From the NCBI GenBank assembly GCA_012270555.1, contig JAAXIC010000028.1, forward strand, positions 1-47,121: a DNA stretch of 47,121 nucleotides. Direction: 5' to 3'. Numbering within the stretch: position 1 is the stretch's first letter; each line of letters begins with the position of its first letter. The notes beneath the pieces are model-generated. The model had not been told where the DNA came from, made no database searches, and saw only the letters and a list, made by a program, of their open reading frames with translations. The stretch is from Chloroflexota bacterium (lineage in GTDB: Bacteria > Chloroflexota > UBA11872 > VXOZ01). Both the position numbers and the translations under genes were made by a program. Shown here piece after piece: positions 26,409 to 40,705 of this stretch.

Positions 26409-27316
26409 TCAGTCAGTTGTGACCTGTTCGACGAACTCCCGCACTATGGCCGCGCATTCCTCCGGCATCTCCAAAGGAGGAAGTGCGTCGCATCGGGCAA
26501 GAAATCGTAGTCCACGCTCAGAATGTCGCTGAGGTCTAGCGTCGGCAGGTACGAGTAGGGCAAGGTTGGGTCAGCCCCGACCACCTTTATGGGACAGTGA
26601 AACTTCCCAAAATCCACCAGCACGGCATAGGGGCTGGCATAGTCCACGATCTGCGCTTCATATTCCGGCGGACAGCGCAGTTCGAAGCCTGAGCCCTCTG
26701 CACTCTCGCGCAACGTGGCCTGCGCAATAAGCTTCGTCGCCCCGGGAACGGTGTGCCGGAAAGTTGGCGCAAAGCTGAGAAGGTCCTCGAAGTCCTCTCT
26801 GGACTTGAACCGAAACGTCCGTCGCCTGGCAAACCCTGCCGCGCGCGTGGCCGCCACATCGAACTCTTCATAGCTGGCGCCGGGCTTGCAAAGCGGGGGA
26901 TCAAAGAGGATGAGCGCCGCGTGACGGCTACCCTTCGTCGGCGAAACGAGCGTAGCAAGAGAAGAAACGGAGTGATAGACCCCAATTAGGGGCTTCTCTC
27001 CAAAGTGGGACTCGATCGCATCCAGAATGAGGTCGTGATCGTTGGCGAATGTCGCAACAGTATGTTCCCTCTGTGATGTGAGGGCATTCCAGCCATGGTT
27101 TCTCAGGTCATGCACGATGACGTCAAAGTCGTCGGTGAGCAGAGACCAGAAAGGGTAGTAGAGGTCAATGGCCAGACCGTTGCCATGGCACAGCACAAGC
27201 CGGGGGCCATCAGGGTTGCCATGGCGCCGCAGGGTGATGATTGTCTCATCGTCCACCGGCACGTCCAACGTAGCGAGGGGTTGAGGTATCTGCCAGACTG
27301 GACCTGAGTCAGGCAT
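26409..27316 (-). CDS. Alpha/beta hydrolase, C-terminus frameshifted
   Basis: This alpha/beta-hydrolase-fold protein begins with ATG 27316, overlapping the stop of the phosphopantetheinyl transferase gene by eight bases. It has an oxyanion loop region LVLCHGNGLAID, the nucleophile Ser116 in the unusual elbow GVYHSVSS (instead of G-x-S-x-G), an acid in VVGADPTLP and the catalytic His in PDATHF (about residue 278). The open frame stops at 26444 after the unlikely tail WRCRRNARP. Shifting frame near 26473-26480 restores a normal tail, PLEMPEECAAIVREFVEQ, ending at TGA 26409. It may release or edit the PKS product, acting as a type II thioesterase would. Confidence 0.75.
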
Positions 27317-28052
27317 CGGGATGTTCGTCTTTCTTCGCTGAGGCTGTGTCTAATTCATATGCTACAGCAGCCGCGAATTCCTGGTTGCCGAGGTCTTCGA
27401 TTCGCCACGTGACCGCGGGCAGTCGTGGCAACCGTAGCATACCGCTCTTTTTGCCGCCTAACATCGCAGCGGGAATCCTGATGCACGTTGCGTCCAGCGC
27501 GAATCCCTCACCCAGCGCCTTCAATACCGCTTCCTTGAGGATCCACAGCTTGAAGAAGAGGCGTGTTCGCGCCAGTCCTTGAGTCAAGGCAAGTGCCGTT
27601 CTTTCCTCTGGGCCAAGCACGGTGTCGATAAGCAAACTTAGGTCACGCTGCGCGTCGCGTTCCTCGATGTCCACGCCCAAGCGTCCGGTTGGAGCGTACG
27701 CCACCAGCCCGTGGTTCCCGCTGTGGCCCACGTTGAAGCTGGCAGAGGCGGGCATATCTTGCACCAAAGCAAACGGCTTACCGTAGCGAGAAGTTTGAAA
27801 AGAAAGCTGCTCGTTCTTGCAATTAAGTGCCTCACAGAGAACAGCGCGCAGGGCGGCACGACAGAGAGAGAAGCGACGGCGCGGCCCAGCATGCACGAAG
27901 CGCTGCCGGCGAACTTGCTCCTGCTCGTCGAGCCATGCCAACGCTTCACCTTCACATTCCTTTTCAGGTGATAGGTCAACGTGGATGATTGATACACCGC
28001 CAACGGTCCTGAAGTGGCGCCACCAACTATTGTCAATTGTTGGCATAATCAT
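27309..28052 (-). CDS. 4'-phosphopantetheinyl transferase (Sfp type)
   Basis: This roughly 247-residue protein has the P3-like motifs of Sfp/AcpT enzymes: SFNVGHSGNHGLVAYA, the Mg-binding RLGVDIEERD and FFKLWILKEAVLKALGEG. It converts apo carrier proteins to the holo form by transferring phosphopantetheine from CoA, and here would prime the PKS ACP domain and the free ACP next door. The start is uncertain: TTG 28064, ATG 28052 and ATG 28046 are all in frame, and none has a good ribosome binding site. It is separated from the ACP gene by an intrinsic terminator, so its transcript may arise by read-through or from an unrecognised promoter. Confidence 0.88.
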   Translation of the reverse strand: MIMPTIDNSWWRHFRTVGGVSIIHVDLSPEKECEGEALAWLDEQEQVRRQRFVHAGPRRRFSLCRAALRAVLCEALNCKNEQLSFQTSRYGKPFALVQDMPASASFNVGHSGNHGLVAYAPTGRLGVDIEERDAQRDLSLLIDTVLGPEERTALALTQGLARTRLFFKLWILKEAVLKALGEGFALDATCIRIPAAMLGGKKSGMLRLPRLPAVTWRIEDLGNQEFAAAVAYELDTASAKKDEHPDA

Positions 28053-28097
28053 GCACGACCACAATGAGATTTACAGGCAATGCCGGATACTGAACGG

Positions 28098-28130
28098 CGA
28101 AAAAAGTGCGCCGCTCCAAGAGGAGCGGCG
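28098..28130 (-). terminator. Intrinsic terminator between ACP and PPTase genes
   Basis: A perfect 9-bp stem, CGCCGCTCC/GGAGCGGCG (28109-28117 with 28122-28130), has a four-base loop. On the minus strand it is followed by CAC and six T residues (28105-28100), a textbook rho-independent terminator. Confidence 0.8.
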
Positions 28131-28187
28131 ACATTACCGTATAGCGCGCGTTGCTTTGGTTCCAAATATCCTTGCAACTGCGCCGAC

Positions 28188-28433
28188 CTAAGCAGCTTGC
28201 GAATCTAGGAACTCGATAAGCTCTTGTAGGTTGTTAATGGTTGGGCACTGCTCGCGAGAAAACTCTATGTTGAACTCTTGAGCGACCACTTTGGTAAAGG
28301 CAACCACGTCCATGGAGGATACGCCCGCCTCCGTCAGACTGACGCCTAAATCGAGCGATGAACTCAGCGGTTTACCGTCTACCTCGAGATTATCGGCCAC
28401 GAGTTGCCTAATGCGTTCTTCTGTTGAAGCCAT
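28188..28433 (-). CDS. Free-standing acyl carrier protein
   Basis: This 81-residue ACP has the phosphopantetheine site in AGVSSMDVVAF, where the second Ser replaces the serine of the usual DSL motif (D to S, L to M). This is more like PKS/NRPS-associated carriers than housekeeping AcpP. ATG 28433 has GAGGAGG nine bases upstream. The gene has a good promoter of its own (28481-28509) and a terminator after it, so it can be expressed independently of the giant PKS 160 bases upstream. It is a candidate partner for the PKS terminal KS, which has no ACP after it. Confidence 0.88.
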   Translation of the reverse strand: MASTEERIRQLVADNLEVDGKPLSSSLDLGVSLTEAGVSSMDVVAFTKVVAQEFNIEFSREQCPTINNLQELIEFLDSQAA

Positions 28434-28480
28434 GACCTGTTTCCTCCTCAAAAAATGCTTCGTTGCATAAAACTGTTGGC

Positions 28481-28509
28481 AGCATAGCAAGACGAGACTC
28501 CGTAGTCAA
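28481..28509 (-). promoter_or_regulatory. Promoter of the free ACP gene
   Basis: On the minus strand, TTGACT (28509-28504) and TATGCT (28486-28481) are 17 bases apart. This predicts a start near 28475 and a 40-base leader before the ACP ATG. Confidence 0.55.
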
Positions 28510-28592
28510 CCTTGAGTGCCCACTATGCATAAGACCGCAAGACCAGTCGCGGTTACCCTCTGCTTTCCACCTTTTCAATTGCACGAACGTAG

Positions 28593-31500
28593 CTAGGTTG
28601 CAGCAAGTCGCTTCGGGGCTTCTATCCAGTGACGGCGACGCTGGAAGGGATAGCTTGGCAGCGAAATGCGCCGACGAGACTCCCCGGTAAAGAGTCCTGC
28701 ATAAGAGATCGTGAGGCCGGTTTCGTATGCCTTTGCCACCGCCTCGAGAAACCCACGGTCAGAGTCAAAGGACGGACTATTGTCTGAGGGACGTACAAGG
28801 CTCTCGATTATCACCGGCTTGGGAGCGTTAGTCGCCACTCCGGTCTGATCCGGCCACAAGTCCTGTACGGTTTGAGTTATCCCTGCCTGCGGACCAATCT
28901 CAATCACCAGGTCTACGCCGAGTTCCACCAACGTTTCAACGCAGCTTTGGAGATTCGCCGTCTCGCCTGCTTGCTGCTCCCAGTAGGTCCCCTCGAGCAC
29001 CGCTTCCGGTTCTGCCACGCGCCCCGTTACACTGCTCACCAAAAGTACAGACGGTTGTGCACCTGCAACGCCCGCAAAGGCCGCGCTCAGTTCATTTGAA
29101 TTCACCTTCTCTGCCTGACCGGCAGCGGCGGCCGCCATCAGCGCACCTCGCGCTGCGGCAAGGCGCAACCCATCCTCCAGACCGAATACACCCGCTGCCT
29201 GCGCTGCCGCAAGCTCACCGAGGTCGTGGCCCACTACCACGCTCGGTTGAATGCCTATGCTCGTCCACAAAGCGGTGAGCGCACACTCGAGGGCGTATAC
29301 GGCCGGCTGCGCCCAAGTTGGGTCGTCCAAGTCTACTGCGTCACCAGCCCGACCAAACATCACGTCCAATAACGAGGTACTGCGTTCCTTCAAGAGAAAG
29401 GCGTCGCAGCGGTCAAGAACCGCGCGGACCACCGGCTCTTGTTCGTAGAGCGCTTTGCCCATGCTAACCCATTGACTACCCTGACCGGTAAACGCAAAGG
29501 CTATTGTACTTACTGCCTGCGGTTCAGGTTCCTCAGGGTCTCCTTCCGTTTCGGCGAGTCTTTTCAACTGCTCGCGCAAGTCTTTAGAATCTTGGAACGC
29601 CAAGCCTGCACGATGTGGGAAATGGCTGCGTCCGACGCTGGCAGTCCAAGCCATATCCGAGAGTAGGGAAGCAGCAGCCGAGTCTGCGGGGTCAAGAATC
29701 TCGGCATAGCCGTCGATCCAGGTCAAATAGCGTTCTGCCAATTCGCGCAGAGCCTGACGGGTCTTGCCGGAGAGAGGCAATAGCTTTGTTGATCGTTCAG
29801 ATTGCGCCTCCACTACGGGAGAATCTGCGGCGTCTTCTGCTAAGAAAGCAGGAACCTCGCGTGATGCACCGGCCGGCCACCGGCCATTGGCAGGTTCGGC
29901 GGAATCATCTTCCGGCACGTTGTAGCCCTCTACCACCACGTGCGCGTTTGCGCCTGAAATCCCGAAGACGTTGACACTTGCCCGCTGTGGTTGCGCGTCG
30001 GCGTGAGGCCAATCCATGGCCTCGGACGTCACCCGCACCAGCAACCGCTCCCAGTCGATGTCGGGATTCGGTGTGTGGAAGTTGAGGTGCTTCGGAATCA
30101 CCCCGCGATTCATTGCCAGAACAGTCTTGATCAGGCTGGCGACGCCACCTGCCGCCTCCAGGTGGCCGATGTTCGTCTTGACAGAGCCGATCAACAGGGG
30201 GTTCTCAGCCTCGCGGCCGCGGCCATAGACGTTGGCTGCCGCATTGAGTTCGACCGCGTCGCCCAAAGCTGTGCCGGGGCCGTGGGCCTCAAAATAGTCG
30301 ATCTCGGCCGGTGCGATACCCGCCTGCGCCAAGGCTTCCTCCATAGCGCGCTCCTGGGCCGGCCCGTTGGGTAGCGTGAGACCCAAGCCGGCGCCGTTCT
30401 GGTTCACTGCCGAACCACGCACCACGCCCCAGATGCGGTCGCCGTCCGCTTCCGCGTCGCTGAGCCGCTTCAGGATCACCATGCCGCACCCCTCGCCCCG
30501 TACGTAGCCGTCTGCGGAGGCGTCGAACGTCCAGCACTGTCCACTCAGCGAGAGCATGCCTGCGTCTGCCAGAAATCGCATAACTGACTGTGAAAGCGCC
30601 GCATTTACGCCTCCAGCCAGCGCCATATCTATCTCGCCACGCTGCAAACTCGTGGCTGCTTGGTGCACTGCCACCAGCGACGCGGCGCAGGCCAACTCCA
30701 GCGGTACGGCCGGCCCTTCTAAACCGAGCGCAAAGGCAATCCGTCCCACGGTTACACCGCCTGAAGTACCCAGGAAGTCATCGTCTCTTCCACTCGCAGC
30801 GATGACGCTCCGATACTCGCTGCCGCCAACGCCTGCGTAGACACCGGTGCGGCTCCCCCGTAGACTATCGGGGTCAATCCCGGCATCCTCGAGGGCTTGC
30901 CAGCTCGTCTCCAGCAGCAGCCGCTGCTGCGGGTCCATCATGCGCGCCTCGATGGGGGAAATGCGGAAGAACCGGGAGTCAAAGAGATCGATTCCTTCCA
31001 GGAATGCTCCGTGCCGCAGCGCGGAGTCTTCGGCTTCTGGGTCGCCGGCAATTCCGTTCCAGGATCCGGCGTCCTGGCGACCGTCTGTCACCATGTTTCG
31101 TTCCGCTTGCATCAGCCGCCAGAAGCCATCGAGATCCTCTGCCCCCGGAATCCGGCACGCCATGCCGACAATGGCAATCCCGTCCTCTACGATCGCAGCC
31201 TGCGGGCGCTGCTCTGGGACGGGCTGCTCGGGCAGGGCTGCCGGTGCGTCAGCACCCGTGAATCCGTCGGCGCTGCCAAGTTCACCGGCCAAGTGACGGG
31301 CGAGTCCCGTGATACTGGGGTAATCGAAGACTACCGTGTTGGACGCCACATACTCTCCGGCAAAGCCGCGGTTGATGCGGTTGCGCAACTCCACTGCCAT
31401 TAGCGAATCCATGCCCAAGTCGGAGAACTCCACGGTTGGCGCGGGTGTCGCGTTCAACCTCAGCACTGCTTGCACTTCCTGTTGCAGGAAGGCCGCCAGC

Positions 31501-34500
31501 ACGTCCTCGCGCTCCGCAGGGGGCGCGTTCCGTAGCCGGGACAACAGGTCTTCCGCCGTTGCAGCTTCGTTGGCTTGCTCGTCAGAAGCTGAGGAGAGCA
31601 GGTCTTCCAAGAAGGGCGGACGATCTTCGACTGCCTCCGCAAACACTGACCAATCCATCGACATCACCACGGATGTCGTGGTGTCCTTTCGTACCAGCAA
31701 TTCAAGCGCCTTGATGCCCTGTTGCGGTGTGAACCAGCGGCCGCCCAGCGCCGCCCGCCGTTGCTCAATTCGTTCCCGTTGCTCCGCGGCCTCGCCGATC
31801 TCCGACCACGCGCCCCAAGCAATGGCTTGTCCCGGCAGACCCAGTGCGCGGCGATGTCCGGCAAGCTGATCGAGAAAGGCATTGGCCGCGGCGTGGTTTG
31901 CCTGGCCCGGATTGCCCATGACACCAACCCGGCTTGAGAAGAGGATAAAAAGATCCAGATCGCGGTCCAATGTCGCGCGATGCAGGTGCCAGCCTCCCAG
32001 TATCTTCGGCCATAGCACTTGCTCAAAGCTCTCCCAGGTTTGGTTGGTAAGCGCGGCGTCCGCAAGCACACCCACACTGTGGATGACGCCGCCCAATGGC
32101 GGTAAGCTGGCATCTATGCGCGCGAGCATGGCATCGATGGCGGTAGAATCCGTCACGTCCGCCAGTTCAACTTCGATTCGGACCCCGCGACTGCGCAGAT
32201 CATCTATGACTGCCTCCGCCTCGGCATCGGGATTGCGGCGGCCGTTCAGCACGATGGTGCCAGCACCGCAAGCCGCGAGCCATTCGGCCACGGCGCAGCC
32301 GATGCCGCCCAGACCGCCGGTCACCAGGTAGGTGCGGTCCTGACGCAACTGACCCTGCGCGAGCGGAGGCGGTGTGAGGACGATCTTGCCGATGTGCCGG
32401 GCCGCGCGCATGAATCCCAGAGCGGCTCCCGCCTCGGCCAGCGGCCACCGGCTGTGGCTGAGCGGTTTCAGCTCTCCTTCCGCAAGCCGCGCCATCACCT
32501 CTTGCAAGACCTCTCCTACCCACGCCGGCTCGGTCTTCTTCAGTACGTCCAATTCCAGAATGTCGTACTTGACGTCCGGCCGAACGGCCGCCATCTCCTC
32601 GTGGCTGAGAATGTCCCGCCGAGCCAATTCGACAAAGCGACCGCCTTGCGCCAGGCAAGACAAGCTGGCCTCGATGAAGCCCTCGCTTGTGAGGCTATTC
32701 AGCACCACGTGTACGCCCTCTCCGCCGGTGGCTGCCAGGATTTCCTCGCCAAAGGCAGTCGTGCGGCTATCGAAAATGTGGTTGACGCCGACCGACCGGA
32801 GATACGCCTGCTTGGGCGCGCTGGCTGTGGCGAATACTTCCGCGCCGGCAGCTTTCGCCAACTGGATCGCTGCCAGTCCCACGCCACCCGCGCCCGCGTG
32901 GATCAGCACCCTATCTCCCGGCTCCAGCCCGGAGTAATGGTATGACAATGCCGCCGACACGAACGCGCTGGGAATGGTAGCCAACCCTGAGACAGACATG
33001 CCTTCAGGAGCCGGAGCCACCAACTCCTCATGCGTTACCATTTCCGGTGCAAATGCGCCGAAGCCTAGGCCAACTACGTGGTCACCGACGGCAAGACTTG
33101 AGACTTCGGATCCTATGTCGAGAATGCGGCCGCACAGCTCCCTACCCAGGTCGCCTTCCTCAATGAAACCGAGCGAACGAAACACATCCCAGAAATTGAG
33201 CCCGGTAGCCTCTACCGCGACGCGAACCTCATTCGGTTCCAAGGTACGCGCAGGCAGCATCTTGATCTCGGGCTTGTCAAACACGCCATCTTTATTGGGA
33301 ACCAGAACCCACTCCGACTCCTCCGGTAGGGATAGGCGCTCAGACACGGTGTCGGGCCGAGCCAGGCGTGCCACCATCCGGTTTCCTGACCGGTAAGCGA
33401 TGTGGTTTTCTACATCGGGGTACATCAGTTCGTTCACAAGGTCAGCTAGAGATCCTGCAGCGCTAGTATCCAAATCAATCATCCGGGGCTGCAGATGGGG
33501 AGCTTCCAAGGATACAACCTTGCCGAGACCCCAAAGAGGAGCGCCGGCCAGTTCGCCAGCGTTCTCGCGTTCCAACACCTGCGCCCCGCGCGTGACAAAC
33601 CACACGCCATTTGCCGGTGTGAGATCGGAATCAGCCACGCCTTGCACCAACGCCAGCGCGCTGGCTCCGGCGCGTTTCACGTCCGCCGCAATCTCCGCAG
33701 TGGTTGCCTCCGCGCCGTGACCGTCCAGGGCTGCGAGGTGCACTACGCCGCTGAATGGAACATCCCGCGGTAGGCTCTCGATCAGCGAACGCCACGATTC
33801 ACGTGACTCCGTGTCCACGGCAGTTCTACGAAACGCGGTGCCGGCCGCGGTCGTCGCGCTGTCTGCAGGCGCTTCGCTGCTTGCCAGGACGACCGTTTGG
33901 TTTCGCTCTGCCAATTGCGCCGCGAGTTCCTCCGCCGCGCCGCCATTGTCTGCGGTCAGCACCCACACGCCAGGTGGTTCGTCAATCTTTGCCGGTCCGG
34001 CAGCCACGATCACACCCTTATCCGGCGTCTTGGATACGTCGGCCTCGTCCGGCCCTAAGACTTCCGCTTCCGCGAAACCGGCGTCACTAAGCGCTTGGCG
34101 CCACACTGCAGGGCTTGCCAAGGCGTGATGGGGGCGATAGTCGTCGGCAAACCGCCACCAGCCGTCCAACTGTCCGAACGTCAGGTCCATCCAGCCCAGG
34201 CCGCTAAGGTTCTCAAGCGCAATCAACTGTCCGGACGGCGCGAGCAGGGCCTGACAATGCGCCAGCGTCTCTTCGAGATAGCGGGTGGCGTGCAGCACGT
34301 TGGAGGCAATCAAGAGGTCATAGCCGTGGGCAGCGAAACCCTGTTCGATGGGATCTTTTTCAATGTCCAATGGGCGATACTCAATGCACCCGCCGCCATC
34401 GCCAAACCGCGCTTCCGCTTCCGCGAAGAAGCCCGCTGAAATATCCGTGTACACGTAATCAAACTGACCTGCAGGCAACTCCGGCAGCACGGAGGCGGTG

Positions 34501-36425
34501 GCCGATCCCGTGCCCGCGCCGACCTCGATTACCCGCAGCCGTCGCCCCGCGGGCATAGCGGCTATCAAGGCCTGAACCGCGTCTGCCAGCAACCGATTTG
34601 CCGCGCGGGCTACCGGCGCTTTCAGGTAGAGATCGGCCGCCGTCGGTTCCCCACTGCTGAAGAGCAGCGTCAAAGGATCTTCACGGCCACGGAGCACCTC
34701 CGCCAGGGCACGGCTGGACCGCCGGAATAGGCCGATTTCAATCTGGCCCTGAGGGTATTGGTCTGACATCCATTCCGTGAATGCTTCAAGATCGATTGGC
34801 ATCTCTTCCGGCAGCGGATCGTCCGGGCCAACGACGACGACAAAGCCGTCGCTCGTTTCCTCGAGCACTCCTGACTTCGCGAGCATCTCAAACAACCGGC
34901 GGAAAAGGCGCGTGTGCTCCGGCAGAACGTCAAGCTGCTGCCGCAACTCCTCTGGGTCCACAACAGTGCCCTTGACGCGCTGCCAGCCCAACTCTTCCAG
35001 GGTCGCGAGCGCGCGGGACCAGGACCAGCGTTCCAAGTCCGCCAGCAGGGCGTCCCTGCCTTGCGGATCGACTTCCGCATCTGTCAGGTATCCGGTGAAC
35101 AACTGTGTATGGGCCGCAATCTCGGACGGATTGGGGAAGAAGCCTGCGGGCAATACTCCAGACTCAAGCGCGTGTTCGCGCCAGACAACCTCGTACAGCA
35201 GGTCGTCGACACCTTCCTCCCCCGCGACCGCCGCCAGCAAGGCCGCCTGTGTGGCGCGCTTTACCGTGTAGTCGCTTATTTCACCGACCAATGCGCTATC
35301 AGGATCGTAGATGCTCACTTCGCCACTCAAGACTTCGGGCGGGGCACCCCCTTCAGATTCGGCGACCTGAGAGGCTTCACTCATGACCACATGGCAGAGC
35401 ACACGTTCAGGCAGTTCTCCGGCAAGCCACAAGCGCTCCCAACCGAAGGGCAAATAGGTTGCTTCGCCAGGGGCGCCGGTCATGTTGCGCGCCACGCCAA
35501 CGACCTGAAAGCAGCCATCCAGCACAAGTGGGTGCACGTCTAGGTCATTACCGCCCGCACCCTCTGGCAAGGAGATTTCCGCCAAAGCCTCGCCGGGACC
35601 GGACCAGACCCTGCCAAGCGTGCGGAAGGACGGACCCAGGTTGATACCGGTTGCCGCTTTCGCGCCGTAATAGGCAGCCTTATCAACGGGTGACAGTCGT
35701 GCGCGCAGGCTATCCAGGTCAAAGTGCGCTTCAGTCTCCGGCGATGAAGCGCCCGACGAGACTTGGCCCTCCACATGCAGCGTCCATGCGCCCTCAGTTC
35801 CCTTGCTATAGATCTGGACCCGGCGCGACGCTGCTTCCTCTGATGCGTCGAGCAGTACTTGCACGTGCCGGACCGCATCCTCGACCCCGTCACTCGATTC
35901 ACTCTCAGCGAATACCATTGGGCTGTGCAGTTGCATGTCTTCAATCGCTATCGGGCCGTCTCCATCCAGAAACGCTAACGCGGCTGCCATAGCGCCGTAG
36001 AGCGCCCCCGGCACCACGAGTCGCCCAAAGACGCGGTGGTCCTGCAGCCAGGCCGGGTCTGATGGATATATCTCTGTCTCGAAGATGATTTCGCCGCGGG
36101 CCGACTCGTGGCGCACGCCGAGCAAAGGATGGTCGGTGGTTGTGCGCCGTTGCTTTGCCGTTTGCAGCCAGTGGCGTTCGCGCTGGAACGGGTAGCTCGG
36201 CAGGGAGATGCGACGACGGGTCTCTCCGGCAAATAAGCCCGTGAAAGAGACTTCCAGTCCGGCCTCGTAGGCCGCGGCTACCGCATCCACAAAGCTACTC
36301 TCAGGGTCGGGTGACGATCCGTCTCTAGGCGGTCGCCGCAGGCTGGACAGTGCTTTCGGCGTCTGGCTGACTTCACGGTCCGATGCCGGTTCCGGCCAGG
36401 CCAGCGTCGCCATGGGGCCCAGCAC
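28593..36425 (-). CDS. Type I PKS/FAS, C-terminal part: DH-MT-ER-KR-ACP-KS-AT-like
   Basis: This continues the reading frame of the upstream KS-AT part after an in-frame TAG. Numbered from ATG 39026, the domains are: DH (965-1252; His997 in DHRVFGRLVVP, Asp1170 in LDGCFQ), C-methyltransferase (1457-1657; VIEVGAGTG at 1499), ER (1907-2222; HAGAGGVGLAA at 2043), KR (2229-2417; TGGLGGIG at 2236, but His2378 where Tyr is expected), ACP (2492-2587; Ser2541 in GMDSL), KS2 (2615-3037; Cys2780, His2915, His2955) and an AT-like remnant (3174-3392) with GHDLG and no catalytic His. The protein stops at the post-AT linker, exactly where a DH would begin. If translated separately, GTG 36425 is the first start. 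The predicted product is an alpha-methylated reduced acyl chain. Confidence 0.9.
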   Translation of the reverse strand: MLGPMATLAWPEPASDREVSQTPKALSSLRRPPRDGSSPDPESSFVDAVAAAYEAGLEVSFTGLFAGETRRRISLPSYPFQRERHWLQTAKQRRTTTDHPLLGVRHESARGEIIFETEIYPSDPAWLQDHRVFGRLVVPGALYGAMAAALAFLDGDGPIAIEDMQLHSPMVFAESESSDGVEDAVRHVQVLLDASEEAASRRVQIYSKGTEGAWTLHVEGQVSSGASSPETEAHFDLDSLRARLSPVDKAAYYGAKAATGINLGPSFRTLGRVWSGPGEALAEISLPEGAGGNDLDVHPLVLDGCFQVVGVARNMTGAPGEATYLPFGWERLWLAGELPERVLCHVVMSEASQVAESEGGAPPEVLSGEVSIYDPDSALVGEISDYTVKRATQAALLAAVAGEEGVDDLLYEVVWREHALESGVLPAGFFPNPSEIAAHTQLFTGYLTDAEVDPQGRDALLADLERWSWSRALATLEELGWQRVKGTVVDPEELRQQLDVLPEHTRLFRRLFEMLAKSGVLEETSDGFVVVVGPDDPLPEEMPIDLEAFTEWMSDQYPQGQIEIGLFRRSSRALAEVLRGREDPLTLLFSSGEPTAADLYLKAPVARAANRLLADAVQALIAAMPAGRRLRVIEVGAGTGSATASVLPELPAGQFDYVYTDISAGFFAEAEARFGDGGGCIEYRPLDIEKDPIEQGFAAHGYDLLIASNVLHATRYLEETLAHCQALLAPSGQLIALENLSGLGWMDLTFGQLDGWWRFADDYRPHHALASPAVWRQALSDAGFAEAEVLGPDEADVSKTPDKGVIVAAGPAKIDEPPGVWVLTADNGGAAEELAAQLAERNQTVVLASSEAPADSATTAAGTAFRRTAVDTESRESWRSLIESLPRDVPFSGVVHLAALDGHGAEATTAEIAADVKRAGASALALVQGVADSDLTPANGVWFVTRGAQVLERENAGELAGAPLWGLGKVVSLEAPHLQPRMIDLDTSAAGSLADLVNELMYPDVENHIAYRSGNRMVARLARPDTVSERLSLPEESEWVLVPNKDGVFDKPEIKMLPARTLEPNEVRVAVEATGLNFWDVFRSLGFIEEGDLGRELCGRILDIGSEVSSLAVGDHVVGLGFGAFAPEMVTHEELVAPAPEGMSVSGLATIPSAFVSAALSYHYSGLEPGDRVLIHAGAGGVGLAAIQLAKAAGAEVFATASAPKQAYLRSVGVNHIFDSRTTAFGEEILAATGGEGVHVVLNSLTSEGFIEASLSCLAQGGRFVELARRDILSHEEMAAVRPDVKYDILELDVLKKTEPAWVGEVLQEVMARLAEGELKPLSHSRWPLAEAGAALGFMRAARHIGKIVLTPPPLAQGQLRQDRTYLVTGGLGGIGCAVAEWLAACGAGTIVLNGRRNPDAEAEAVIDDLRSRGVRIEVELADVTDSTAIDAMLARIDASLPPLGGVIHSVGVLADAALTNQTWESFEQVLWPKILGGWHLHRATLDRDLDLFILFSSRVGVMGNPGQANHAAANAFLDQLAGHRRALGLPGQAIAWGAWSEIGEAAEQRERIEQRRAALGGRWFTPQQGIKALELLVRKDTTTSVVMSMDWSVFAEAVEDRPPFLEDLLSSASDEQANEAATAEDLLSRLRNAPPAEREDVLAAFLQQEVQAVLRLNATPAPTVEFSDLGMDSLMAVELRNRINRGFAGEYVASNTVVFDYPSITGLARHLAGELGSADGFTGADAPAALPEQPVPEQRPQAAIVEDGIAIVGMACRIPGAEDLDGFWRLMQAERNMVTDGRQDAGSWNGIAGDPEAEDSALRHGAFLEGIDLFDSRFFRISPIEARMMDPQQRLLLETSWQALEDAGIDPDSLRGSRTGVYAGVGGSEYRSVIAASGRDDDFLGTSGGVTVGRIAFALGLEGPAVPLELACAASLVAVHQAATSLQRGEIDMALAGGVNAALSQSVMRFLADAGMLSLSGQCWTFDASADGYVRGEGCGMVILKRLSDAEADGDRIWGVVRGSAVNQNGAGLGLTLPNGPAQERAMEEALAQAGIAPAEIDYFEAHGPGTALGDAVELNAAANVYGRGREAENPLLIGSVKTNIGHLEAAGGVASLIKTVLAMNRGVIPKHLNFHTPNPDIDWERLLVRVTSEAMDWPHADAQPQRASVNVFGISGANAHVVVEGYNVPEDDSAEPANGRWPAGASREVPAFLAEDAADSPVVEAQSERSTKLLPLSGKTRQALRELAERYLTWIDGYAEILDPADSAAASLLSDMAWTASVGRSHFPHRAGLAFQDSKDLREQLKRLAETEGDPEEPEPQAVSTIAFAFTGQGSQWVSMGKALYEQEPVVRAVLDRCDAFLLKERSTSLLDVMFGRAGDAVDLDDPTWAQPAVYALECALTALWTSIGIQPSVVVGHDLGELAAAQAAGVFGLEDGLRLAAARGALMAAAAAGQAEKVNSNELSAAFAGVAGAQPSVLLVSSVTGRVAEPEAVLEGTYWEQQAGETANLQSCVETLVELGVDLVIEIGPQAGITQTVQDLWPDQTGVATNAPKPVIIESLVRPSDNSPSFDSDRGFLEAVAKAYETGLTISYAGLFTGESRRRISLPSYPFQRRRHWIEAPKRLAAT

Positions 36426-36521
36426 CGCGTGCGGGCCTATCTCGATTAAGAGATCTACGTTGCACTCAGCCAGGGCCCGGACTCCGCTGGCAAATGCAAC
36501 CGGCTCGCGCGCATGGCGCCG

Positions 36522-36524
36522 CTA
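36522..36524 (-). other. In-frame amber (TAG) codon inside the first AT domain
   Basis: The frame reads GAC GGC GCC TAT TAG CGG CGC CAT GCG and continues without interruption into the downstream PKS part. AT domains have Trp at this place (Y-W-R-x-H), so a single TGG-to-TAG change explains it. Confidence 0.9.
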
Positions 36525-39026
36525 ATAGGCGCCGTCGAGTGCCAAATCGGGTCCTACGGCCTCCCCCGTCAGGTTGCTGATCACGGTCAAGTTGGGAGAT
36601 TCGGTCACCACGTTGTCCAGAGAGGCTTCAAGTTCATCCAGGGCCGGGTCCACCAGGGGACTGTGGAATGCCTTGGTCGTATTGAGCTGATTTACCCGAA
36701 CGTCCTCTAATTCGAAGCACTTCATTATGGTTGCGATCTTCTCAACCGGCCCGCTCACTACGATGTGCGCGCCATTGTCCGCCGCGAGGCTCAGGCCGAC
36801 ACCGTCGGATGACGCGTTGAGTTCAGCGACAACTTCAGCCACTCGTGCCGCCGGGGCGAAAATCGCGGCCATCGTGCCGGATCCGGTGCTGGACAAGAGG
36901 CTGCCACGCCGCGCGGCAAAGCGCATCCCGTCTTCCAGGCTGAAAACGCCGGCCGCCTGCGCTGCAGCCAGTTCCCCGACGCTGTGCCCCAGCACCACGC
37001 GCGGCCGGATGCCCACGCTGGCCCAGAGTGCCGTCAGAGCGCACTCCAGCGCGAACAAGGCCGGCTGCTCCCACGCGGTATCGCCCAAGTCGCCACTCGC
37101 GCCGGGCTGCCCGAACATCACGTCCAGGAGAGAGGCACCTCTTGCCTCTTGGAAAACCGATTCGCAGCGGTCCAGCACTGCCCTCGCCACCGGCTCGCTC
37201 TCGTAGAGGTCCTTCCCCATGCCGACCCACTGGCTGCCCTGTCCCGTGTAGACGAATGCCACCTTCGATGCCGCTGCGGGTGCCTCAACCGCGTCAGGGC
37301 CGGCCAGTTCGCTGAGGCGCGCTCGCAATGACTCAGCGTCGTGGAATACGACGCTCGCCCGGCGGTCGAAATGGCTCCTACCGATCCCTGCGGTCCATGA
37401 CATGTCCGCAAGCAAAGTCTCCAAACCACCGCCATCCGTGGACCGTTCGTCAAGCCACGAGAGATACCGTTGGGCAAGTTCCCGGAGGGCGCCCTCTGAC
37501 TTGGCCGACAACGGCAGCAATCGGGTCTGGCGTTGCGCGAATTCTGCTTCTTGCGAGGGATAGTCCAATTCAGGTTGCGGCAAGGATACCGCCACGGCCT
37601 GCGCCGCGCCCGCCGTCTGAAGCTCCTCACTGGTTTCACCGTTTGCGCCGCGATACTCTTCCACCACGATGTGGGCATTCGTCCCGGATATCCCAAAAGA
37701 ATTTACCCCCGCCAGGCGCGGCCGCCGGCGGTCTTGCGGCCAGTCCATCATGTCTGAGGTAATCTGCAGCGGCAGACGCTCCCAGTCGAGACTTGGGTTG
37801 GGGTTTTCGAAGTGCAGGTGTTTGGGAATAATCCCTGTATTCACCACCAGCGCCGCTTTGATGACTCCTGCGATGCCGGCAGCGGATTCCAAGTGGCCGA
37901 CGTTTGTTTTCACGGAGCCTACGAGCAACGGATGGTTGGGGTCGCGCTCGCGGCCGTACACATTGGCCACGGCATCTATTTCGATTGGATCGCCAACGGC
38001 GGTTCCCGTGCCGTGCGCCTCAAGATAGTCGACCTGCGAGGGGAGTACGCCGGCGTCAGCTAAGGCGGTTTCCATCACTTGCTCCAACGCGGGTGTATGC
38101 GGAACGGTGAGCCCAACGCTGGCTCCGCCATGATTTACCGCTGAGCTGCGAATCACCGCCCAAATGCGGTCTCCGTCAGCCTCCGCCTCGCTAAGGCGCT
38201 TCAGGACAACGACCCCGCAGCCTTCACCCCGCACGTAACCGTCCGCCGACGCATCGAAGGTCTTGCACTGCCCTTCCGGGGACAGCATCATCGATTCGGC
38301 GCGTAATTCGTAGATGCGACCATTGAGGATGGCCTGCACACCGCCCGCAATGGCGAGGTCCGCCTTGCCCTGCTGCAAGTCTGCTACCGCGTCATTCACG
38401 GCCACCATGGCGGATGCGCACGCGGCGTCCACTGCCTTTGCCGGTCCCATGAGACCCAGGACAAAGGAGACTCGCCCACTGGTGCCGTTGAGGTTCGTAC
38501 CACTCAGAGCATAAAGAGACCCGGCAGCCTCACCGGGTTTGCTTGAGTTTACGACCAACATGCGGTATTCGTCGTTGCTGATGCCGGTGTAAACGCCGGT
38601 GCGGCTCCCTTTGAGGCGGCTGGGATCGATTCCCGCGTCCTCGAGAGCGAGCCAGCTTGTCTCCAGCATCATGCGTTGCTGCGGGTCTAGCATCTCGGCC
38701 TCTACGGGCGAAATGCGGAAAAACTCCGCGTCGAACAGGTCGATGTCATCAACGAAAGCGCCGAAGCGACACGCTTGGTGCTGCACGTCGAGACCATGAA
38801 AGATCTCCCCTAGACGACCTTCACCGGAAGCGGGATCGCTCTCGGTGACGGCATTCCTGCCTTCTACCAGGAACTGCCAAAAGGAGTCCAAGTCACGAGC
38901 GCCGGGAAAGCGGCACGCCATACCGACGATTGCTATTGGCTCTGCAGCTTGAGGAACCTTCGGCTTCGCGGTCTCTGACGAGCCGCTCGCTTGCGTCATG
39001 TTTCCGATAGTCTTAGCTGACCTCAT
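36522..39026 (-). CDS. Type I PKS/FAS, N-terminal part: KS-AT (interrupted)
   Basis: This 834-residue open part of the giant synthase begins at ATG 39026 behind AAGGAGAGGG; a TTG at 39032 also opens the frame. The KS spans about 30-454 with Cys203 (DAACASAM), His338 (EAHGTGT) and His378 (KTNVGH). The AT begins near 589 with Ser682 in GHSVG, an Arg in FAARRGS and His788 in KAFHSPLV. The KAFH motif resembles the HAFH of malonyl-specific ATs, fitting malonyl extension with methyl groups added by the MT domain. The AT is cut by TAG at codon 835, leaving about 33 C-terminal AT residues in the next part. Unless read through, the AT is truncated. Confidence 0.9.
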   Translation of the reverse strand: MRSAKTIGNMTQASGSSETAKPKVPQAAEPIAIVGMACRFPGARDLDSFWQFLVEGRNAVTESDPASGEGRLGEIFHGLDVQHQACRFGAFVDDIDLFDAEFFRISPVEAEMLDPQQRMMLETSWLALEDAGIDPSRLKGSRTGVYTGISNDEYRMLVVNSSKPGEAAGSLYALSGTNLNGTSGRVSFVLGLMGPAKAVDAACASAMVAVNDAVADLQQGKADLAIAGGVQAILNGRIYELRAESMMLSPEGQCKTFDASADGYVRGEGCGVVVLKRLSEAEADGDRIWAVIRSSAVNHGGASVGLTVPHTPALEQVMETALADAGVLPSQVDYLEAHGTGTAVGDPIEIDAVANVYGRERDPNHPLLVGSVKTNVGHLESAAGIAGVIKAALVVNTGIIPKHLHFENPNPSLDWERLPLQITSDMMDWPQDRRRPRLAGVNSFGISGTNAHIVVEEYRGANGETSEELQTAGAAQAVAVSLPQPELDYPSQEAEFAQRQTRLLPLSAKSEGALRELAQRYLSWLDERSTDGGGLETLLADMSWTAGIGRSHFDRRASVVFHDAESLRARLSELAGPDAVEAPAAASKVAFVYTGQGSQWVGMGKDLYESEPVARAVLDRCESVFQEARGASLLDVMFGQPGASGDLGDTAWEQPALFALECALTALWASVGIRPRVVLGHSVGELAAAQAAGVFSLEDGMRFAARRGSLLSSTGSGTMAAIFAPAARVAEVVAELNASSDGVGLSLAADNGAHIVVSGPVEKIATIMKCFELEDVRVNQLNTTKAFHSPLVDPALDELEASLDNVVTESPNLTVISNLTGEAVGPDLALDGAY

Positions 39027-39060
39027 TGTCAACCCTCTCCTTACTTATCCGTCTAGCTCC

Positions 39061-39307: not shown

Positions 39308-40705
39308 CTACTCGTTGTAGAACTCTTGGATAGACGGCTCTTGGAGCACAGCGTCCCACCGCGCGGCCACGTTATCGAGCGCGTCGCGGGCGTCGAGCTC
39401 ACCGGCGCCGGCTTTCGCCAACTCTTCCAGGATGATGGGGCGCATCTTGTCCCAGCCGGGAATGGGTTGTCGGCCCAGACCGACATTCTCAAGATTGCGG
39501 AGCAAGCCGGACAGGAAAGCATTCTCTTGCACGTACGGGGCCTTGTTGGCCACGGACACCCGCGGCGGCAAGTAGAACGTCAACTCATCGTAGGCGATGA
39601 GCACGTCGTCCTCATGTACCGTGAGCAAGAGGTCCCACGTAACGTCCGGGTTCTTGGTAGCGGCGCCCATGCCCAGCCAGTCGTTGAACGAGAGGCTGAC
39701 AGCCCGCTGGTCGCCCATGGGCTCAGGCGCAACGAGAATTTGGTCAACGTCTTCCGGCGCATCAGTTGAAACACGGCGGCCGATGGCGGCGTTACCCCAG
39801 ATCATGGAGACGTAGCCCCCGGCAAAGCCCGCACCGTAGCCACTGAATTCCGGCCCGACGTACGATGAGCCATGAGGATTGAAACCGAGCTTGCGACGCA
39901 ACTGGAATTCCAGCCCCGCGATAGCTTCCGGACCGTTCACAAAGCCCTGTGCCTTGCCATTGGTGACCCATTGTACGCCATTCGATTCGACAATGCCGTT
40001 CAATTCGGCTTCCTCGGGATCACGGCCGAGATTGCCCGGACTGAAACCGTAGCGCTCGATCTCCTTACCCAAAACCTTCCACTTTGTCAAAGTGGTGGCG
40101 AAGTCGGCTTGATCGTCCATGGTCCACGCTTCAGGTGGAGTCAAACCCGCCTCCGCCATGTGGTCGTCGCGAAGCCAATACGAGCGATTGGCCGCCATCA
40201 TGGGCATGCCCTGCAATTGCCCCTTCACACGGACGGTGTCCAGCGTGCTGGGCAGGAAGTCCGGCTCCATGCCCCAGGTGGCAAAGTACGGATTGAGCGG
40301 AATGGACAGCCCCGCCATATAAATGGACGGCGCAATCGCCTGGCCCATCTTGAAGAGATCGGGCATCTGGCCGGCAGCCAAACCAACCGAGAGCTCTACA
40401 AAAGTGTGGGCTTGTCCCCCCGTGCGGGGCGTGAAGACGACCTGACCGTTGGGGTACTTCGCCTGGAAGCGCTCGTTCAGAATGCCTTCCGCCCACTCTT
40501 GCCAGCGCCCGCCATCCTGCACGCTCAGCGTGACTTCCTCCGTCTTTGGCCCGGCTTCCGCGGCCGGTTCCGCAGCCTGTGGCTGATCCCCATCCATCTC
40601 TGTAGACGACATCTGGGCCTGACCGCAAGCTGCCAGGAGCCCAAACGCGCCTGCTGCCACGCTCGAGCCCAGCAGACCACGGCGCGTAATGTGCAATTTT
40701 CGCAT
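39308..40705 (-). CDS. Extracellular solute-binding lipoprotein (ABC importer family 1), Tat-exported
   Basis: This 465-residue protein has a twin-arginine signal (ITRRGLLGSSVAAG) with the lipobox LAAC at about residue 27, an acidic Ala-rich linker, and a solute-binding fold (VTLSVQDGGRWQEWA near the start, MIWGNAAIGRR in the centre). It probably delivers a carbohydrate to an ABC importer, but no membrane component is adjacent. ATG 40705 follows AAGGAG by nine bases and a very good promoter (40787-40816). It is the second orphan binding protein in this window; the two differ substantially outside the signal peptide. Confidence 0.85.
   Translation of the reverse strand: MRKLHITRRGLLGSSVAAGAFGLLAACGQAQMSSTEMDGDQPQAAEPAAEAGPKTEEVTLSVQDGGRWQEWAEGILNERFQAKYPNGQVVFTPRTGGQAHTFVELSVGLAAGQMPDLFKMGQAIAPSIYMAGLSIPLNPYFATWGMEPDFLPSTLDTVRVKGQLQGMPMMAANRSYWLRDDHMAEAGLTPPEAWTMDDQADFATTLTKWKVLGKEIERYGFSPGNLGRDPEEAELNGIVESNGVQWVTNGKAQGFVNGPEAIAGLEFQLRRKLGFNPHGSSYVGPEFSGYGAGFAGGYVSMIWGNAAIGRRVSTDAPEDVDQILVAPEPMGDQRAVSLSFNDWLGMGAATKNPDVTWDLLLTVHEDDVLIAYDELTFYLPPRVSVANKAPYVQENAFLSGLLRNLENVGLGRQPIPGWDKMRPIILEELAKAGAGELDARDALDNVAARWDAVLQEPSIQEFYNE

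Follow-up and report, generated by a model that had tools for sequence, protein, structure and literature searches.

In-frame TAG at a conserved tryptophan position of a SUP-like polyketide synthase gene from a Chloroflexota bacterium

Described sponge-symbiont synthases and the interrupted locus

SupA is a polyketide synthase (PKS) of one module that combines a methyltransferase with full reduction. The sponge-symbiont ubiquitous PKS group (SUP) occurs in Chloroflexota and other phyla (PMC9426513), and a role in the synthesis of methyl-branched fatty acids has been proposed for SUP/SupA (PMC4245539, PMC9864124). The descriptions of SUP/SupA by Fieseler 2007 and Hochmuth 2010 are taken here as cited in PMC4245539, PMC3908369 and PMC9426513. 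In an amplicon survey of supA, frameshifts were found in 15.4%, and the authors were unable to say whether these were real (PMC4245539). SwfA (i.e. the sponge widespread FAS) has the order KS-AT-DH-ER-KR-ACP without a methyltransferase, carries HATGT for HGTGT in its KS and an altered DPQQR motif, and one swfA is split into two frames in a poribacterium (PMC3908369).

The window, i.e. the whole 47,121-nucleotide stretch of DNA that was analysed, is one contig (JAAXIC010000028.1, assembly GCA_012270555.1) of the 3.18 Mb genome (56 contigs, 97% complete) of an uncultured Chloroflexota bacterium, and is apparently part of a metagenome assembly. A type I PKS frame of 3,479 codons on its minus strand is divided by a single TAG, in the context Y-TAG-R-R-H, into 836 codons 5' and 2,642 codons 3'. 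The frame is thus open on either side of the stop within an acyltransferase (AT) domain, as originally predicted. Pfam domains span the full length of the PKS in the architecture KS-AT-DH-cMT-ER-KR-ACP-KS-AT. The features of the gene are as follows.

28593-39032, minus strand: whole SUP-like type I PKS frame, interrupted by TAG (the true start may be a few codons inside 39032)
37806-38942, minus strand: first ketosynthase domain (KS1), Cys-His-His intact
36561-37256, minus strand: first AT (AT1), portion 5' of the TAG, with the catalytic Ser (GHSVG, 36975-36989) and His (FHSPL)
36522-36524, minus strand: in-frame TAG (codon 837 of the frame), where every readable relative has Trp in its AT
36192-36521, minus strand: C-terminal portion of AT1 and post-AT linker, 3' of the TAG, aligning to the ends of solved ATs (EryAI, DEBS)
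35238-36131, minus strand: dehydratase domain (DH)
34224-34529, minus strand: C-methyltransferase core
32376-33236, minus strand: enoylreductase domain (ER)
31800-32333, minus strand: ketoreductase domain (KR)
31290-31487, minus strand: ACP domain
30075-31181, minus strand: second ketosynthase domain (KS2), Cys and both His retained, HGTGT motif drifted
29118-29498, minus strand: second AT (AT2), shortened, with Asp (GHDLG, 29217-29231) in place of the catalytic Ser and no His segment

The 836-codon part comprises the KS and most of AT1, which is split at about position 225 of the 319-position profile; the 2,642-codon part holds the AT end, DH, C-methyltransferase, ER, KR, ACP, KS and a partial AT. 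Both catalytic residues of AT1, Ser and His, are encoded 5' of the TAG, and the domain loses its C-terminal part. Both halves match one continuous protein of 3,420-3,480 codons in relatives, and in intact relatives only one residue, always Trp, separates the two matches. With Pfam domains along the entire length of the PKS, this continuous match across the TAG is far beyond chance. A second copy of the PKS was not found in the source genome.

A scan of genome contigs yielded 378 relatives, of which the best 80 were retained; with nine further relatives and this copy, these loci make up a set of 90 copies. The best 80 of the 378 loci derive from Chloroflexota, Gemmatimonadota, Acidobacteriota, Nitrospirota, Gammaproteobacteria, Acidimicrobiia, Latescibacterota and others. 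From sample-style names and the literature, we infer that these relatives are sponge symbionts, and one record names a sponge. The family is placed as SUP-like by its distribution and domain content: like SUP/SupA, it is a type I PKS of small size that recurs in sponge-associated genomes from unrelated phyla, Chloroflexota included, and its C-methyltransferase and full reductive set fit a role in methyl-branched fatty acid synthesis. Frame-broken copies are also known in supA, although the present copy differs in being stopped in AT1. It shares with SwfA a wide occurrence among sponge symbionts as a type I PKS/FAS, but the methyltransferase and the HGTGT of KS1 set this PKS apart, and identity with SwfA was rejected on both features.

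Conservation of the TAG site, the reading frame and the AT domains

The residue at the TAG site was examined by projecting relatives onto the reference by collinear matches only. Trp was present in 88 of 88 readable relatives (the best 80 of 378 loci plus the nine others), in agreement with the prediction that the stop occupies an AT Trp position. This Trp was encoded by TGG in all 78 codons checked in the genome-contig loci (best 80 of 378), and in 18/18 class relatives, a set that overlaps these loci and in which the PKS is one unbroken gene of about 3,420-3,480 codons. The closest relative among the best 80 of 378, a Chloroflexota bacterium (G004; JAPPLM010000080.1), likewise has TGG. No stop was observed at this site in any of the 88 readable relatives, so that the comparison of homologous loci proposed with the original prediction gives Trp everywhere readable, indicating that this is not a conserved recoding site.

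Purifying selection is evident on either side of the TAG, with dN/dS values relative to G004 of 0.163 for the 5' part and 0.130 for the 3' part. The TAG is the only stop ahead of the terminal stop and the only lesion of the gene. Changes were detected at 2 of the 655 sites that are invariant in all other copies, a value in the mid-range for intact copies. An old pseudogene was ruled out by this lack of excess change on either side of the TAG. As the gene is not decaying, the lesion is recent, polymorphic or an error.

The two AT domains differ in their conservation across the set of 90 copies (i.e. the best 80 of 378 loci, nine further relatives and this copy). The catalytic Ser of AT2 is replaced in 69 of 71 readable copies, whereas that of AT1 is retained in 87 of 88, the one exception lying at an alignment edge. 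AT2 is also the shorter domain by about 70 residues and has no His segment, with a motif-to-Trp distance in the reference of 81 residues against 154 for AT1. From these sequence features, AT2 is predicted to be catalytically dead in 69 of the 71 copies, which would leave AT1 as the only competent AT; the TAG would therefore remove the sole competent AT of the PKS. The KS2 Cys is present in 81/81 readable copies of the same set. A conserved KS2 followed by a putatively dead AT2 is thus placed after the ACP, and no description of such a C-terminal KS and dead AT was found in the SUP/SwfA literature searched.

Origin of the stop codon

The TAG is probably a recent, ordinary nonsense mutation in the SUP-like PKS of this strain. 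A single-base change at the invariant Trp codon would have produced the TAG recently in this strain. Translation would end in AT1, releasing an 836-residue KS-AT fragment without DH, methyltransferase, ER, KR and ACP, and the synthase is predicted to be non-functional in this allele because translation would stop in AT1. We infer both the presence of this base in the cell and the loss of function. Such a lesion resembles ordinary nonsense alleles of biosynthetic genes in consisting of one premature stop with no other decay while relatives are intact; it is unlike them only in that so large a fraction of this PKS family is independently broken. It would also fit the broader picture for the family, whose copies are independently broken at scattered sites while the remainder of the gene is conserved.

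A sequence, assembly or strain-mixing error, i.e. a wrong consensus base or mixed reads of related symbionts, is a serious if distinctly less probable explanation. A sole TAG in a strongly constrained gene is also how an error would look, and mixed assembly is plausible as SUP-like copies are diverse yet share conserved domains. The uncertainty over whether the supA frameshifts were real (PMC4245539) points the same way. The window itself contains no N. Four large essential genes (rpoB, rpoC, carB and dnaE) were used as controls, and no internal breaks were observed in these genes, contig ends aside, in the PKS-bearing class genomes or in the source genome, where all four are intact; these results lend no support to an error-rich source genome. 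Based on rough lengths, 0 events were counted in ~350 kb of control sequence as compared to 7 events in ~250 kb of PKS, giving a rough binomial probability of ~0.002 for a common error rate when these estimated lengths are used. This contrast is suggestive only, since both lengths were estimated and assembly may be harder for the PKS than for the controls. In two relatives without this PKS (G010 and G012) the rpoC frames are broken, indicating that errors do occur in such genomes. With the four control genes free of internal breaks, generic assembly error is unlikely to account for all of the breaks.

Programmed or suppressor-mediated read-through of the TAG, by which full-length synthase would still be made, is very improbable. 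The open frame and the purifying selection on both sides of the TAG would be compatible with it, as would a fairly strong predicted RNA stem that starts just 3' of the TAG (z -2.24, 13th of 414 gene windows). This stem, however, is missing in the nearest relative (G004) and variable in others, and a read-through RNA structure was rejected as it is predicted yet not conserved; the absence of a stop at the site in relatives also speaks against recoding. The tRNAs of the genome were located by a family search and 46 of 47 were typed with ARAGORN. No CTA anticodon was present among the 46 typed tRNAs, an absence that is not absolute in a genome that is 97% complete, and the amber suppressor tRNA raised by the original prediction was therefore not found. 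Release factor 1 (RF1) is present, and PylS gave only a weak sub-cut-off match, comparable to that in most control genomes. Suppressor-tRNA and pyrrolysine read-through are not supported by these three results. Among 25 likely genes of the window, 14 end in TAG, 7 in TGA and 4 in TAA, bearing out the earlier statement that TAG terminates other genes and this PKS itself. TAG as the commonest stop is unusual for bacteria in general. The claim that TAG is not a reassigned codon is likewise upheld by RF1, by the frequency of TAG as a stop in the window and by the lack of a CTA-anticodon tRNA. Read-through, suppression and reassignment are thus without support, and only the nonsense mutation and the sequence error survive from the explanations originally offered. 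The 47th tRNA-like gene (L087), which was not reported by ARAGORN, has two masked bases beside the anticodon and on visual inspection reads as tRNA-Lys(CTT).

Least probable of all is a gene that now works as two, with re-initiation after the TAG (e.g. at the GTG at 36425) and re-association of a split AT: a downstream frame of 2,610 codons, which could start at a GTG some 33 codons 3' of the TAG, would allow this, but the break falls inside the AT rather than at a linker, a start at 36425 loses ~33 AT residues and no relative is split at the TAG site.

Broken copies across the family and the neighbouring genes

A stop or frameshift was present in 18 of the 90 copies once N-gap cases were excluded, and in 16 of 65 full-length copies (~1 in 4), in the same set based on the best 80 of 378 loci. 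Frameshifts account for 14 of the lesions and in-frame stops for 6 (4 TAG, 1 TGA and 1 TAA), at scattered sites; the PKS of G004 (L057) has lost single bases at two separate points away from the TAG site, one in AT1 and the other in DH. This rate of breakage is in line with the 15.4% of frameshifted supA amplicons. Continuing, recurrent loss of SUP-like PKS genes amid otherwise strong purifying selection, with independent lesions in about a quarter of full-length copies, is a possible but doubtful reading of these data. Recurrent loss would be expected if the product were a shared good in the holobiont, as null alleles would rise and then be purged or replaced by transfer. If reads confirm the scattered lesions in the 18 copies, these would show that a lipid pathway common among sponge symbionts is still being lost. 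Gene callers will list such broken PKSs as two genes.

Two genes lie downstream of the PKS.

27309-28064, minus strand: 4'-phosphopantetheinyl transferase (PPTase), downstream neighbour of the PKS
26444-27316, minus strand: alpha/beta hydrolase, downstream neighbour, whose relatives adjoin the PKS in most related loci

A solute-binding protein encoded beside the PKS (39308-40705) shares 94-98% identity with the corresponding proteins of G001, G002 and G004. Across 27309-39032, identities to the same three genomes are 58-91% for the PKS and 57-74% for the PPTase (L057, L066, L068 and L088). The near-identity of the solute-binding protein, set against the far lower identities of the PKS and PPTase, suggests that the PKS-PPTase segment may have been replaced via transfer between relatives.
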